From: Microcaldota archaeon | Lineage (GTDB): Archaea; Micrarchaeota; Micrarchaeia; Micrarchaeales; CABMGC01 | DNA length: 41,771 nucleotides | NCBI GenBank assembly: GCA_021810455.1 | Contig: JAJZIU010000004.1 | Location: 1-41,771, forward strand | Reading direction: 5' to 3' | Program-made: the position numbers and the translations under genes | In this document: piece after piece, positions 1 to 35,428 of the stretch | How the letters are laid out: the number at the start of each line of letters is the position of its first letter | How positions within the stretch are numbered: position 1 is the first letter of the stretch | Notes under the pieces: model-generated | Told to the model about the DNA's origin: nothing | The model's database searches: none | The model's input: the letters and a program-made list of their open reading frames with translations, nothing else

Positions 1-1235
1 TGGAACTGACAAGAGCCTATAAATTCAGAATCTATCCCGATGCCACAAGGCAGGAGGAGATAGATGAACGTCTAATCCTTGCACAACAATTCTATAACAA
101 GATTCTTGAGAAGTCAACCGAGTCCTATAAAAACGGAAAGACAAAGGTTTCTATGGCTCAATTCAACAAGTTCGTGAAGGAAATAATCCATGGCGACAAG
201 AAGTACTTGAAACTATATTCGCAGACAAGATGCGAGATAGAATTCAGGCTTCTGAAGGCATACCAGAACTTCTTCAGAAGAGTAAAGGAGAAGAAACAGG
301 GAAAGAATCATGAAGTCGGATTCCCAAGATTCAGATCAAGAGACAGATACAAATCAATAACTTATCCACAGGACAATGGTTCCTTCTCAATTCATAAAGG
401 AAGACTCAGAGTTTCAAGGATAGGGACTATGCCAATAGAATTGCACAGACCAATAGAAGGCAAAATCAAGACGCTTTCAATCAAGAAGGATGCTGATAAG
501 TATTATGCAATCTTCACAGCGATAACTGACATCAGGATTCCAGAAGTGGAAAATTCAAATCCAGTAGGAATAGATCTGGGACTAAATTCATTCATCGCAC
601 TTTCTGACGGAACAAAGATAGAGAAGCCGAGGTTCATGCAACAAAGGAGAAGGAGGATTGCCATCTGGCAAAAAAGAGTTGCAAGAAGAGATAGGGGTTC
701 AAAGAGACGGGAGAAGGCAAAGGCAGGTCTCCAAAAGACATACGAACACATAACAAACCAATCAGATGACTATCTGCACAAGTTGTCAAAAACACTGGTA
801 ACCTCAGAATACACCTCATTCGCAGTTGAAGACCTTCAAATTCAGAATATGGTAAAGAACCACCGCCTCGCACAGTCAATACAGAACGCTTCATGGAACA
901 GGTTCATCCAACTGCTCTCATACAAGGCTGAAAGTGCTGGTTTGAGAGTAGAAAAAGTGAATGCAAGAAATACCTCAAAGACATGCAGTAATTGTGGCAA
1001 CATCCAAGATATGCCACTTTCTGAAAGGACATATAACTGCCAGAGATGCGGAATGTCAAAGGACAGGGACATAAACGCATCAATAAATATATTGCATATG
1101 GCAACTACCCTCGGACAGAGGGAAAGTCACGCTCAGGGAGAGGATCGCAAATACATTCCAACTGGGAATGCAAACGGACTCGAAGAACTGAGAACTGATA
1201 AAACACATCCTTTGCAGGATGCAGTGATTGCATGA
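1..1235 (+). CDS. tnpB: TnpB RNA-guided nuclease of an IS605/IS1341-type element (5' end at window edge)
   Basis: TnpB is the RuvC-type nuclease of IS200/IS605 elements, guided by an RNA made from the element's right end. The frame is open from base 3, and the first two bases are TG followed by codons reading ELTRAYKFRIYPD, the usual TnpB N-terminus. The window therefore probably begins at the second base of the ATG, and the protein is essentially complete at about 411 residues. The RuvC acidic residues are present: Asp in VGIDLGLNSF (near base 573), Glu in FAVEDL (828-830) and the last Asp in KDRDINAS (near 1070). A zinc finger reads CSNCG then CQRCG. No TnpA transposase lies in view. The enzyme looks catalytically intact. 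Confidence 0.93.
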   Translation, partial: ELTRAYKFRIYPDATRQEEIDERLILAQQFYNKILEKSTESYKNGKTKVSMAQFNKFVKEIIHGDKKYLKLYSQTRCEIEFRLLKAYQNFFRRVKEKKQGKNHEVGFPRFRSRDRYKSITYPQDNGSFSIHKGRLRVSRIGTMPIELHRPIEGKIKTLSIKKDADKYYAIFTAITDIRIPEVENSNPVGIDLGLNSFIALSDGTKIEKPRFMQQRRRRIAIWQKRVARRDRGSKRREKAKAGLQKTYEHITNQSDDYLHKLSKTLVTSEYTSFAVEDLQIQNMVKNHRLAQSIQNASWNRFIQLLSYKAESAGLRVEKVNARNTSKTCSNCGNIQDMPLSERTYNCQRCGMSKDRDINASINILHMATTLGQRESHAQGEDRKYIPTGNANGLEELRTDKTHPLQDAVIA

Positions 1236-18212: not shown

Positions 18213-21047
18213 TCAGGTTCCCACTACCTGCTTCAGCTTTACGCTCCTTGATTTGCCCGATATCTCTCTTTTTAGTGATTCAAACTCTTTTATCATCGGG
18301 TTTCTGTCCCTTATTAGTCCTCTTTTTTCAAGTTCCTTAAGTGTAACGAGCCTAGTGGCGCTAACTATTGGATATCTGTGTTCATCATCGAATATCAGAG
18401 ATGTCATTGTAAATCCTCTTAAAGAATCAGAAACTCCTATTCCTATGCTTTCTGCATAAGAGTTTATTCCCTGGAGGCATGGGCTTACCAATTGAAATCC
18501 ATTGTCAACTATGCTTTTTCTGAACACATGCGCATCTCCTGCAAATGTGGTTGCCTGTATTCCCGCCTTGTCTATCTGATTGTATGGATCCTTGCTTGGT
18601 TTATGTATCATGAAGAACGGTTTTCCATCTATCAAGTACATACCATGCCCATAATCTCCTCCTGGAGCCCTGACAACTTTATCCTCTCCTATTATTGCAG
18701 ATATAAGCATGCCTAACTTTATCGATTCATCCATACTTCTGTCTTCGTGCGTCTTGTTAACGTGGTTTCCAGATACTGTAACCACCATTCCGGCATTTCT
18801 TAATAATGGTTTTATTATGTTTATTAGCTTCTCAGCCTGAATGTCTGGATTTGGTATTGCCTGTCTTTCGTACATCAGTGCCCTGTACTCTTCCATGTAC
18901 GTCTCAAATTCTACGGAGTTCCTGTTCAATCCTTTTCTTGTTAGAAATCTTTCAAAGAATTCAACGTTAGATTGATTGTTTTCAATGTTCACTTCGTACT
19001 TGTGATTCCTGAGATTGCCTTCTATATTGTCTCCCAGGAGAAGGAGATTAAAAGGTCTAAACGCTTTGAATCCTGAAACATAACCTACCACACTATCAAG
19101 TATGCGGGTTGCTGGTTCTCCCATTCCCGGACTTCCTATGTGCGTATCTGTCAGAACAACGAAGTGCATCTTTCTTAAGTTGTACTCCCTGTTTATTGCC
19201 TGTCTTACTATGTTATCTGCAAATTCCTTTATTTTCGGGTTTTTTGTATCTCCACATTTCGATACCGCTCTGAGCAATTCCGGTACTGCATTTTGATCAG
19301 AAGGATTTATTCCGTGCATGAGCAGCATAACATTCAAGAGTCTGTTATTCAATTCCGAAGGCAGTTTGGAAACAACTTGTGCCCTCTCTTTGTCATCTAT
19401 GTTCCTCTCAGTTATCCCCAAAGGCTTGATATTTTTAATACGGGATATCAAAATCCCCGCCTGTCTCTGGGCTTCCTTCTCTGCGGATATCTGCAGATAT
19501 TCGGAGGTCATAAACTCGGTTTGGAATGCGCCTCCATTGTATGTTATCTTGTAGAATCCTGATGTTATAGGCATTGATCCAAATGCGCTTAGAAATGGGG
19601 TTTTGTGTCCTGTGTTCCATGCTTTTGACACCATTTCCCTATCTACAAACGTAGGAAGCACCACACTGTAAACATAGTTCGAGCTTCTGTTTCTCCATGG
19701 AAATGCTTCCTCTCCAGCCTTATAACTGTGTCCACTTATGATCATGTCTACTGGTATTTCTGAAGTGTTTATCACGTGCTGTATCGCTTTGGAATAATCT
19801 TTGCGCACAGATTTAGAATAACTCACCGGATCATACGTGACCATTACTCGCATGTTATTTACGTTGAGCACTGACAGCCTGTCAGATACTATATTCAATC
19901 TCGCACTCCTACCGAAAACATCACGTATGGTCGCATAAGCTTCCATCATTGAAAGTTCCTGAGCAATGGTGCTCAAGGATTTAGTACCTGGCATCATATT
20001 GACAAATCTGAATATGCTTGCACCGCTTCCAGTTTCCATCTGCTCTTTTCCAACAGTCCTTGATACACTGTCAACGTTTTCATAGCCCAACTTTGTCATC
20101 ATCTTTGCCAATGTTTTTACTTTTTCTACAAGTTCCTCTATTTTTTCATTATCCTGCTTCTTGCTGCTTCTTGCTGCATCTAAATTTTTGTTAGCCTTTG
20201 CAAACTCGTCCCTAAGCGCTTCGAGTGTTTCATTCCTTCTATCACTTCCCATGCTTTCTAAGTAAATTTTTAAGAACAGTTCATCATTGGAGTAGGCCTT
20301 GAATTTTGATATTATATCATTCACTGGCATGGCTCCGTTTTCTTCAAACCATAGTTTTATGAGCTCTACGTATTTTTCGCCTATTTTTCTATAATCGTCC
20401 ACCTCATTCTGATGTGCACGCACCTTATCTCTTATTCTTTCTATCCTTGCCTCAAGATTTTTTTTCTTCTCATCACTTTCAATATTTTTCATCCTTCTCT
20501 CATAGTGGTCCAACGTATTCGTCGTGCTTTTTATTATCTCCTCTTCAGATTCGACCCTGTCTGATACTTTATAAAATAGCTCAAACAGTCTTTCGGGTTT
20601 CCTGTTGTAAATGTAAACTAAAAGATCGTACTTAACTGTCATGTTGTCTCTATCACTGTTTCCCATCACGTACGTCATACCATTCCTGTCTCCTGATCTC
20701 TCAACAAGGTTGGCTATCCTACTCATGTGTGGCTTCATAGATACGCTCGCGCTGCCTATGTCACTCACGTACTCTCCGAGCATGAGGCTTTCCGCCCTTC
20801 CGCCTCTCGTTATGTAATTCGGTATTTTTGGAAGTAGCTCTCCATTAAATATTATGTGGTCAGGAGCATTTCCTCTCTGTATGCTTTTTCGTAGTTCTCT
20901 GTAAAGTCCGACCATGTTGTTTCTGCTAAAGTACGTTGTGCCTCCGCCAAGCTCTCCAACCGCCCATATTGTTGCACCCCCTTCAACCTCTGTTTTTTCA
21001 TCATTTAACCTCCCGTAACTGGCCCCATACTCAAATTGTCCCGCCAT
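18213..21047 (-). CDS. Large protein with a degenerate and an intact metallophosphoesterase domain
   Basis: This is a 944-residue protein. The C-terminal third has the calcineurin-like metal motifs in order: VVLTDTHIGSPG (Asp634, His636), LLLLGDNIEGN (near 667), VTVSGNHVNKTHED (near 757), FFMIHKPSKD and FAGDAHVFR (near 836). The N-terminal part repeats the scheme weakly: WAVGELGGG (29-36), IIFNGELLP (66-72), VMGNSDRDN (127-135) and MIISGHSYK (about 435), with the first Asp and last His replaced. Between the halves of the first domain is a charged, coiled-coil-like stretch (about 150-320). No membrane segment. Substrate unknown; a DNA or RNA nuclease or phosphatase is possible. A TATA-like box lies near 21078-21089. 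Confidence 0.75.
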   Translation of the reverse strand: MAGQFEYGASYGRLNDEKTEVEGGATIWAVGELGGGTTYFSRNNMVGLYRELRKSIQRGNAPDHIIFNGELLPKIPNYITRGGRAESLMLGEYVSDIGSASVSMKPHMSRIANLVERSGDRNGMTYVMGNSDRDNMTVKYDLLVYIYNRKPERLFELFYKVSDRVESEEEIIKSTTNTLDHYERRMKNIESDEKKKNLEARIERIRDKVRAHQNEVDDYRKIGEKYVELIKLWFEENGAMPVNDIISKFKAYSNDELFLKIYLESMGSDRRNETLEALRDEFAKANKNLDAARSSKKQDNEKIEELVEKVKTLAKMMTKLGYENVDSVSRTVGKEQMETGSGASIFRFVNMMPGTKSLSTIAQELSMMEAYATIRDVFGRSARLNIVSDRLSVLNVNNMRVMVTYDPVSYSKSVRKDYSKAIQHVINTSEIPVDMIISGHSYKAGEEAFPWRNRSSNYVYSVVLPTFVDREMVSKAWNTGHKTPFLSAFGSMPITSGFYKITYNGGAFQTEFMTSEYLQISAEKEAQRQAGILISRIKNIKPLGITERNIDDKERAQVVSKLPSELNNRLLNVMLLMHGINPSDQNAVPELLRAVSKCGDTKNPKIKEFADNIVRQAINREYNLRKMHFVVLTDTHIGSPGMGEPATRILDSVVGYVSGFKAFRPFNLLLLGDNIEGNLRNHKYEVNIENNQSNVEFFERFLTRKGLNRNSVEFETYMEEYRALMYERQAIPNPDIQAEKLINIIKPLLRNAGMVVTVSGNHVNKTHEDRSMDESIKLGMLISAIIGEDKVVRAPGGDYGHGMYLIDGKPFFMIHKPSKDPYNQIDKAGIQATTFAGDAHVFRKSIVDNGFQLVSPCLQGINSYAESIGIGVSDSLRGFTMTSLIFDDEHRYPIVSATRLVTLKELEKRGLIRDRNPMIKEFESLKREISGKSRSVKLKQVVGT

Positions 21048-23212: not shown

Positions 23213-23317
23213 TGCCGCAGGTCGGATTTGAACCGACGACATTCCGGTTCCTGATGCTGAAAGAATCAAAAAGATCCATCTTCAGCCGGACGCTCTCCCG
23301 AACTGAGCTACTGCGGC
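23213..23317 (-). tRNA. tRNA-Phe (GAA) with a 31-base intron after position 37
   Basis: Read on the minus strand, the acceptor arms GCCGCAG and CTGCGGC pair, the D arm is GCTC/GAGC, the anticodon stem TCCGG/CCGGA encloses CUGAAGA with anticodon GAA, and the T arm is GTCGG-TTCAAAT-CCGAC. The discriminator is A. The anticodon stem only closes if bases 23279-23249 are removed, giving an intron after G37, the canonical archaeal site. Exon CTGAA can pair with TTCAG inside the intron, consistent with a bulge-helix-bulge splice site. CCA is not encoded. Mature length is 74 bases. Confidence 0.95.
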
Positions 23318-23376: not shown

Positions 23377-24921
23377 ATGCCAGGCTGGAAGGACATAGGA
23401 AACGCTTCTGAATACATAAGGACTGATGGGTTTTCTCCCAGAGAGTATCAATTCAACATAATAAATTCAATAATTGATAATGGCAACACTCTTGTAGTGC
23501 TGCCTACCGGTCTTGGGAAAACTCTTATCGGAGCCGCAATAATAGCAAACGCTCTTTCCAAAGGCAAAAAGGCACTTCTACTGGCTCCGACAAAACCTCT
23601 CGCAGAACAGCACTATTCCACACTATCTTCCATGCTCGTCATTCCCAAAGAAAAAATATTGCTGCTTGTAGGTTCCATATCAAAATCAAAAAGACGGGAA
23701 AATGAACAGCACGCTGATGTTATAATTGCAACTCCTCAAACAGTATCAAACGATCTCAAAGAAGGAAGCCTAACTCTTAACGATTTCGGAGCTGCAATCT
23801 TTGATGAGTGTCACAGAGCAGTTGGAAAGTACGCATACACATACATAGCAAACGAGTGTGCCGTTCTTGACGTTCTAATCGTAGGGTTAACGGCATCGCC
23901 CGGTGGCAAAAAGGAACGCATAAAGGCTTTGGTAGACGCACTCAACATAAAACACATAGAAGCCAGGGTGTCGAGTGATCCTGATGTCAAAAAGTACGTG
24001 ATGCAAAACAATATTCACGTTATTGATGTTGACAAGTCAGAAAGGATAATACAGATATCTAAACTTCTAACTCCTGGAATAGAACACAGCATGACATCAT
24101 TAAAGAAAATGGGTCTGATGAAGTTCAAGAGTTTTGAGAGAATGCCGAAAGGCATGCTCATACAACTTGGAAATGACATAAGCAAAATAGAGGCGCAAAA
24201 CTACAAATTTGCTGCCATATTCAGTTACACAAGGCTGCTAAATCTGATCCACGCCTACGATCTACTTATGACAGAGGGTATATACCCTTTCTCAAAATAT
24301 TTCGATTCTTTGGCTGCGAGGGAAAAGAAAAGCAGAAGTGTCGAAACGCTTTTAGCAGATGCCAACATAGTCAATGCGAGGAAACTTGCTGACGAAGCTC
24401 TAAAACACGGAGAAGAGCATCCGAAGGTCATGGCACTTCTAGATGTAATAAGGCTTTACAAGGACAAGAATGCGATAGTCTTTGCACAATACCGGTCAAC
24501 TGTGAAGATGCTGGTAGAGTACCTGCGTAATAATGGGTTTTCTGCAGAACCATTCGTAGGAAAAAAAGATGGAATAACGCAGGAAATGCAAAAATCAACA
24601 ATAAACAACTTCAGGGAAAAGAAGTTCAACGTTCTTGTAGCTAGTTCGATAGGAGAAGAGGGTCTTGACATACCTAATGTCGATGTTGTTGTTTTCTACG
24701 AACCCATACCAAATGAAATAAGAGACATACAAAGAAGAGGTAGAACGGGACGTTTCAGAACAGGAGAAGTCTACGTACTCATGACAAAAGGCACAAAGGA
24801 TGAAGTTTATCTCTACATATCGAGACAGAGGGAGCGCAAGATGCTCACGCTAATAAAGGACATTAATAAAAAACTTAATTGGCAGAGTAATAATAAACAA
24901 TGGGAGCAGAAAAAGCTCTAG
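23377..24921 (+). CDS. Hef/FANCM-type superfamily 2 helicase (helicase part only)
   Basis: Motifs of the 514-residue protein: FSPREYQFNII (Q region), VLPTGLGKT (43-49), APTKPLAEQH (Ia), DECH (143-146), LTASPGG (III), IVFAQYRSTVKML (IV), ASSIGEEGLDIPNVD (V) and QRRGRTGR (VI). The helical insert between the two RecA domains and the DECH box are those of archaeal Hef, which unwinds and processes stalled forks. Euryarchaeal Hef carries an ERCC4 nuclease and HhH domain after the helicase; this protein ends at KKLNWQSNNKQWEQ, so they are absent. A separate nuclease may partner it. The antiporter gene follows nine bases later. Confidence 0.88.
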   Translation: MPGWKDIGNASEYIRTDGFSPREYQFNIINSIIDNGNTLVVLPTGLGKTLIGAAIIANALSKGKKALLLAPTKPLAEQHYSTLSSMLVIPKEKILLLVGSISKSKRRENEQHADVIIATPQTVSNDLKEGSLTLNDFGAAIFDECHRAVGKYAYTYIANECAVLDVLIVGLTASPGGKKERIKALVDALNIKHIEARVSSDPDVKKYVMQNNIHVIDVDKSERIIQISKLLTPGIEHSMTSLKKMGLMKFKSFERMPKGMLIQLGNDISKIEAQNYKFAAIFSYTRLLNLIHAYDLLMTEGIYPFSKYFDSLAAREKKSRSVETLLADANIVNARKLADEALKHGEEHPKVMALLDVIRLYKDKNAIVFAQYRSTVKMLVEYLRNNGFSAEPFVGKKDGITQEMQKSTINNFREKKFNVLVASSIGEEGLDIPNVDVVVFYEPIPNEIRDIQRRGRTGRFRTGEVYVLMTKGTKDEVYLYISRQRERKMLTLIKDINKKLNWQSNNKQWEQKKL

Positions 24922-35329: not shown

Positions 35330-35428
35330 TGGACTCGGCGGGATTCGAACCCGCAACCATCCGCATTTTAGGCAAATTATGTTTGTTTTGCTTGCAAAGC
35401 GGGCGCTCTACCGTTGAGCCACGAGCCC
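35330..35428 (-). tRNA. tRNA-Ala (UGC) with a 27-base intron after position 37
   Basis: On the minus strand, GGGCTCG pairs with CGAGTCC, including the G3-U70 wobble that identifies alanine tRNA. The D arm is GCTC/GAGC, the anticodon loop TTTGCAT has anticodon UGC, and the T arm is GCGGG-TTCGAAT-CCCGC. The discriminator is A and CCA is not encoded. Bases 35392-35366 interrupt the anticodon loop after A37; within this intron GCAAA pairs with TTTGC. Mature length is 72 bases. Confidence 0.95.

Follow-up and report, generated by a model that had tools for sequence, protein, structure and literature searches.

A single archaeal gene encodes two metallophosphoesterase (MPE) units in one chain: a C-terminal unit with a conserved active site and an N-terminal unit whose site has evidently decayed. 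The gene lies in the window analysed here, a stretch of 41,771 nucleotides from a Microcaldota archaeon, and its 944-residue product belongs to a family with 48 or more members. This tandem of a live and a dead unit is well supported. By prediction and comparison, we established the order of the fold elements, the homology of the two halves, the conservation of one active site and loss of the other, and the distribution of the family. The explanation of function that we rate best, with middling confidence, is a phosphodiesterase (PDE) of the DP1/Mre11 type, likely a nuclease, equipped with a decayed second unit and a helical arm.

The gene is a single long open reading frame of 944 codons plus stop with an ATG start. 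It occupies positions 18213-21047, as a preliminary description of this DNA had reported, and runs on the minus strand; stop codons occur throughout the plus strand of the same interval. Its predicted parts, with the evidence that delimits each, are listed below.

18213..21047, minus strand: whole gene, 944 codons plus stop (open reading frame and full-length homologues)
20598..20978, minus strand: first part of the N-terminal pseudo-MPE, residues 24-150, strands b1-b3 (model, conservation, profile match to the C-domain)
within 20598..20978, minus strand: degenerate motifs of this first part, G31-E32..G34, G69-E70 and G129-N130-S131-D132
19914..20660, minus strand: helical insert inside the pseudo-MPE, residues 130-378 (models and conservation)
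within 19914..20660, minus strand: long helices of the insert, residues 152-187, 192-236, 268-294, 300-319 and 356-378
19494..19913, minus strand: second part of the pseudo-MPE, residues 379-518 (model, Foldseek, conservation)
within 19494..19913, minus strand: Y405, degenerate equivalent of H815, and G439-H440-S441-Y442, equivalent of GH-x-H
19182..19493, minus strand: helical linker, residues 519-622, with near-invariant P563-S564-E565 (model and conservation)
18333..19181, minus strand: C-terminal active-type MPE domain, residues 623-905 (about 622-905) (model, Foldseek, conservation, profiles)
19140..19148, minus strand: motif I, D634-T-H636 (translation and conservation)
19029..19034, minus strand: motif II, G672-D673 (translation and conservation)
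18762..18770, minus strand: motif III, G760-N761-H762 (translation and conservation)
18603..18605, minus strand: motif IV, H815 (translation and conservation)
18528..18539, minus strand: motif V, G837-D838-A839-H840, which reads GHxH in 35/48 homologues (translation and conservation)

AlphaFold2 modelling of the 944-residue protein (pLDDT 79, pTM 0.78) predicts the C-terminal domain as a double beta-sandwich with flanking helices, and Foldseek matches it to Mre11, DP1 and purple acid phosphatase. Its elements (E, strand; H, helix) are E624-632, H646-659, E666-671, H734-751, E752-758, H774-786, E791-794, E801-806, E809-814, H821-828, E833-836, E843-847, E850-854, E878-887 and E895-902. The N-terminal half repeats this order, broken by a helical insert of about 250 residues past the third strand: E25-30, H42-57, E64-68, H97-117 and E123-127 lead up to the insert, and E384-387, E392-396, E399-404, H419-428, E435-441, E444-450, E458-466 and, further on, E496-503 and E508-514 lie beyond it. 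Residues 1-548 modelled separately (pLDDT 76, pTM 0.73) gave an MPE-type order that agrees with the full-length model. Structure prediction of the halves thus bears out an N-terminal fold that is not unrelated to MPE and the insert that the preliminary description had placed there. It had also described the units as fused through charged helices; a helical linker does join them (residues 519-622), but the main helical mass sits inside the N-terminal pseudo-MPE, past its third strand.

Conservation across 48 homologues marks the C-terminal unit as the live one. Its DxH, GD, GNH, H and GHxH motifs are present in order, and D634, H762, H815 and H840 are found in 48/48 sequences, H636 and D673 in 47/48 and N761 in 45/48. 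The DxH, GD, GNH and GxAH-type motifs read earlier from this protein alone are therefore real and near-invariant, and the numbering of Asp634 and His636 was correct. Position 838 is His in 35/48 and Asp in 13/48, the window protein among the latter; in this quarter of the family, Asp838 would swap one metal-ligand His for another metal-binding residue. Q737 and E774 are invariant. The ligand set corresponds in order to that of P. abyssi DP1 (D360, H362, D404, N450, H497, H560 and H562, with catalytic H451; PMC10721889).

Profile comparisons place the C-terminal domain nearest to DP1. When its profile, with inserts removed, was aligned by HHalign with MPE proteins of the host lineage, DP1 ranked best (95.7%, E 8.5e-9), Mre11-like proteins second (89.7%, E 1.8e-6) and small MPEs third (81.8%, E 1.1e-5). 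Pfam Metallophos matches 15/30 family members (best 2e-11), and PHROG 7339, 'DNA repair exonuclease', the best-matched PHROG, matches 10/30 (best 3.2e-11), so the domain itself belongs, as an ordinary member, to the known MPE superfamily. The SbcD-like phrog_100 matches one member. The earlier statement that no known family fits thus holds for the whole architecture but not for the C-terminal domain. Foldseek searches with the whole model returned MjMre11 (4tug, E 4e-4) as the top PDB match, together with PolD DP1 (9f2a, 6hms) and purple acid phosphatases that score almost equally; in a viral library, matches were to uncharacterised phage proteins (3e-7), 'DNA polymerase II small subunit', DNA repair exonucleases and SbcD.

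Two points count against the nuclease reading. Phosphatases, nucleotidases and pyrophosphatases are built on the MPE fold too, and the similarity to DP1 and Mre11 is confined to the common PDE fold, with neither a DP1 OB domain nor, among the neighbours read, a Rad50-like ATPase linked to it. The C-terminal domain might accordingly be a phosphatase, nucleotidase or cyclic-(oligo)nucleotide phosphodiesterase in signalling or metabolism, with a regulatory N-terminal half. The superfamily holds many such enzymes, and purple acid phosphatases and LpxH are among the Foldseek matches. We consider this doubtful, given that the profile ranking favours DP1 and Mre11, that the best PHROG is a phage DNA-repair exonuclease family, and that no signalling domain or gene is linked to the protein. 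The same ranking, with PHROG 7339, supports the preliminary suggestion of a nuclease-like rather than a generic active domain.

The N-terminal half shares the MPE fold with the C-terminal half, as judged from the order of elements, from HHalign scores against controls and from weak Foldseek matches. Aligning the two halves by HHalign with 48 sequences and inserts removed gave a probability of 63.6, E 6.7e-5 and a score of 38.7 over 145 collinear columns, in keeping with the earlier observation that the N-terminal half follows the order of the C-terminal one; 30 column-permuted profiles scored at most 16.7 and a reversed profile 20.5. The match is clear only with 48 sequences and inserts removed (with 30 sequences, E 0.007 and probability 6%). 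Foldseek with the N-terminal half alone found LpxH best (E 0.0086, probability 0.98), then purple acid phosphatases, Mre11, POLD2 (Pol delta B-subunit) and Dbr1, with helical bundles also matching the insert. These matches to the predicted model are supportive rather than decisive because none is better than E 0.001. Against DP1, Mre11 and small MPE profiles, HHalign detected no similarity for the N-terminal half (probability at most 3%). Among the profiles tested, the C-terminal half therefore appears to be its closest relative, which suggests, without proving, that the two halves arose by internal duplication.

Metal ligands are degenerate in the N-terminal half across all 48 sequences. The first Asp position is Glu32 in the window protein and acidic in 37/48; the equivalent of H636 is His in 5/48, and that of H815 (405) in 9/48. 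The N761 equivalent (130) is mostly E, K or D, the H762 equivalent (131) is His in 0/48, and His is absent from the eight commonest residues at the H840 equivalent (442). The preliminary description had the first Asp and last His replaced; both are altered (Glu32 and 442), but the equivalents of H636, N761, H762 and H815 are lost as well. Its view of one live and one dead MPE unit agrees with ligands kept in one half and lost in the other. Because active-site positions are lost family-wide, the N-terminal half is best described as a pseudo-MPE, not one decayed copy.

Other positions in this half are strongly conserved, including R110 (48/48), D132 (46/48), N135 (45/48) and the near-invariant P73 and P76, and K311 in the insert is K or R in 48/48. 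Since R110, D132, N135 and K311 are conserved despite the lost site, the dead unit appears to have been kept for a purpose. The same near-invariant polar residues could instead belong to an active site of another kind, metal-independent or re-built, in which case the N-terminal half would not be a pseudo-enzyme. This strikes us as improbable; we recognised no known catalytic constellation among them, and R110 and D132 may equally be structural or substrate-binding.

Homologues were found in 29/98 related genomes. A second, profile-based search of 301 genomes of the phylum, in which added members were extracted as full-length open reading frames, brought the family to at least 48 proteins of 840-1095 aa from 47/301 Micrarchaeota genomes, with one fragment besides. 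The protein is thus no singleton, and none of the close homologues that we found has been assigned a function. Identity to the window protein is 19-61% in a 30-sequence alignment. Named records among the matches are all 'Candidatus Micrarchaeota' MAGs, and two members (G129 and G195) lie outside the order. The gene is usually single-copy, with two copies in G012. Its presence is patchy within genera: it is missing in a genus-mate of the window genome (G001, 77% complete) and in four genus-mates of G058 (G024, G037, G044 and G051). A gene missing from a draft genome may simply lie in a gap; among genomes more than 90% complete, 22/96 have a match and the patchy pattern repeats.

The family tree has two deep subfamilies, each with both main taxonomic families, which fits an old gene with many losses and possibly some transfer besides. 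Vertical descent is argued for in the nearest pair, the window protein and its G058 relative, because their identity (~62%) is close to that of the neighbouring core gene Hef (also ~62%) and both loci share the same ABC-transporter/HTH neighbourhood. A viral or mobile origin is not supported, as we found no homologue in viral contigs, phages or plasmids (IMG/VR, INPHARED and PLSDB). Within the genomes and collections searched, the live–dead tandem was seen in some Micrarchaeota only; the scan of genome contigs used patterns of the window subfamily, which distant members in other phyla may escape.

Searches of Pfam, NCBIfam and PHROGs with the window protein returned no MPE model, and the weak matches fell nearly all in the coiled-coil region. 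A PDB sequence search gave no meaningful relative, and the architecture was not found described in open-licence PMC papers. PADLOC and PHROG matches to JetC, MkoC and tape-measure proteins were discounted as coiled-coil similarity. Across Pfam, NCBIfam, PHROGs, PADLOC, PDB and open-licence papers, the family is apparently undescribed.

Neighbouring genes vary from genus to genus. Comparison of empty sites within genera found flanking synteny not kept (G001, G024 and G037; G083, G090 and G094). No conserved operon partner emerged family-wide; the closest candidate is a gene for a ~200-aa protein, here called EPHG, which comes next downstream, in the same orientation, in five genomes from two genera (G077, G078, G240, G241 and G088). 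It is not beside most members, the window gene included. Its motifs, E...PDF...EPHG, were read by eye and suggest a PD-(D/E)XK-like protein; neither a Pfam match above cut-off nor a PADLOC match was found. Of 296 Micrarchaeota genomes searched, 53 carry the EPHG family, for the most part at a distance from the MPE gene (loci of the family include L042 10258-10854, L044 10851-11444 and L045 7123-7746). In two related genomes, an open reading frame for a ~295-aa protein with a HESAH (HExxH-like) motif and no Pfam match lies directly downstream of the MPE gene (L035 11146-12045; L036 6921-7799), followed by a second uncharacterised reading frame.

A defence module against viruses or mobile elements, in which the effector would be an MPE nuclease equipped with a long helical arm and in some genomes with a PD-(D/E)XK-like partner, would suit the patchiness even within genera, the fast divergence and changing loci, and the nuclease-like partner gene in five genomes. 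Weak PADLOC matches of the helical region to SMC-like defence proteins point the same way. We think this unlikely: the PADLOC matches lie in the coiled-coil region only, none over the catalytic part, and are such as coiled coils produce by chance; we recognised no known defence gene or island next to it; and the similar divergence of the nearest pair and its Hef genes (62% each) fits vertical descent with loss.

The MPE gene lies convergent to, and beside, herA-nfo repair genes in four genomes from the two deep subfamilies (G005, G006, G015 and G020). Such adjacency is rare, and it is a weak hint of a HerA link because herA-nfo is a core pair, present regardless of the MPE gene. Genes for endonuclease IV (nfo) and a HerA-type ATPase form a conserved pair across the window's taxonomic family, for example at G005:C28:4168-6678 (L033). 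An accessory factor in replication or repair, acting as an alternative or helper proofreading or processing nuclease with PolD or HerA machinery, would draw on this always convergent adjacency and on DP1 being the closest host paralogue of the C-terminal domain. It too has a low probability in our estimate, for the host has DP1 and Mre11-like genes of its own, the protein is missing from many relatives, and convergent genes are not co-transcribed.

Comparison with known systems sets the architecture apart. DP1, the small, proofreading exonuclease subunit of archaeal PolD, has the same PDE fold class, ligand order and SDxHxGS-type first motif. Unlike DP1, the window protein has no OB domain (no Pfam OB match; in its place the model has another PDE-like unit plus helices), is about twice as long, carries a further, degenerate PDE unit interrupted by a helical insert, and lacks a DP2-linked context; it is not the DP1 orthologue, as the same genome has a separate 505-aa DP1-like protein. 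Mre11/SbcD has the PDE nuclease fold and ligands in common, and the two PDE units of its dimer are reminiscent of the tandem. In the window protein, however, both units are in one chain, one of them is dead, and the helical arm belongs to the dead unit. A distinct Mre11-like gene is present in the host, and clustering and reading the neighbours in 30 neighbourhoods found no family-wide partner that would be a candidate Rad50/SbcC. In B-subunits of eukaryotic B-family polymerases, such as POLD2, an inactivated PDE domain is kept as a scaffold (PMC4996933). POLD2, weakly listed by Foldseek for the N-terminal half, is a separate polymerase subunit, not fused to a live PDE domain. The phage MPE proteins of PHROG 7339 resemble the family at the level of profile and profile name alone; no tandem turned up in the collections of phages, plasmids and viruses.

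On the favoured reading of a DP1/Mre11-type nuclease, the C-terminal domain would be a two-metal phosphodiesterase akin to DP1 and Mre11, acting on DNA or RNA. Its conserved ligands suggest phosphodiester hydrolysis with two metals held by D634, H636, D673, N761, H815, residue 838 and H840, and with H762 as the catalytic His; profile ranking and context point to a nuclease over a phosphatase. The N-terminal domain, which probably arose long ago as a copy of the C-terminal domain, would have lost its metal site family-wide and gained the helical insert. By analogy with Mre11 dimers and polymerase B-subunits, we infer that the dead unit pairs with the live one within the chain, as the subunits of an Mre11 dimer do, and that it may, with the helical arm, position or limit the substrate as a scaffold or clamp. 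A bolder version, which we regard as speculative and doubtful, is a new nucleic-acid-processing machine: a DP1/Mre11-type nuclease with its own dead dimer partner and a DNA-gripping arm, sometimes joined by a PD-(D/E)XK partner, in defence or genome processing of Micrarchaeota.

In eukaryotic replicative polymerases, PDE domains that have decayed are known to serve as scaffolds in separate subunits. The same decay appears to have befallen one of two PDE units within a single archaeal protein. If the protein is a nuclease, it would offer a compact system for studying the contribution of a dead PDE unit to a live one, and a function would be assigned to a ~900-residue family kept by about one-sixth of Micrarchaeota genomes despite their size of ~0.8 Mb.

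The window holds further features. Two tRNA genes on the minus strand, at 23213-23317 and 35330-35428, are found by Rfam and missed by ARAGORN; their length of ~100 bases suggests introns, and a match in G024 to the gene at 23213-23317 splits into two exon-like pieces. A Hef-like protein of 514 aa (23377-24921, plus strand) seems to be without the nuclease part because, of the 781 positions in the NCBIfam Hef model, it matches the first ~520 only; its relatives are similar in length. At the window's edge, an open reading frame at 3-1235 (plus strand) begins 'MLTRAYKFRIYPD' and has a relative in G001; we take it to resemble TnpB proteins of the IS605 type.
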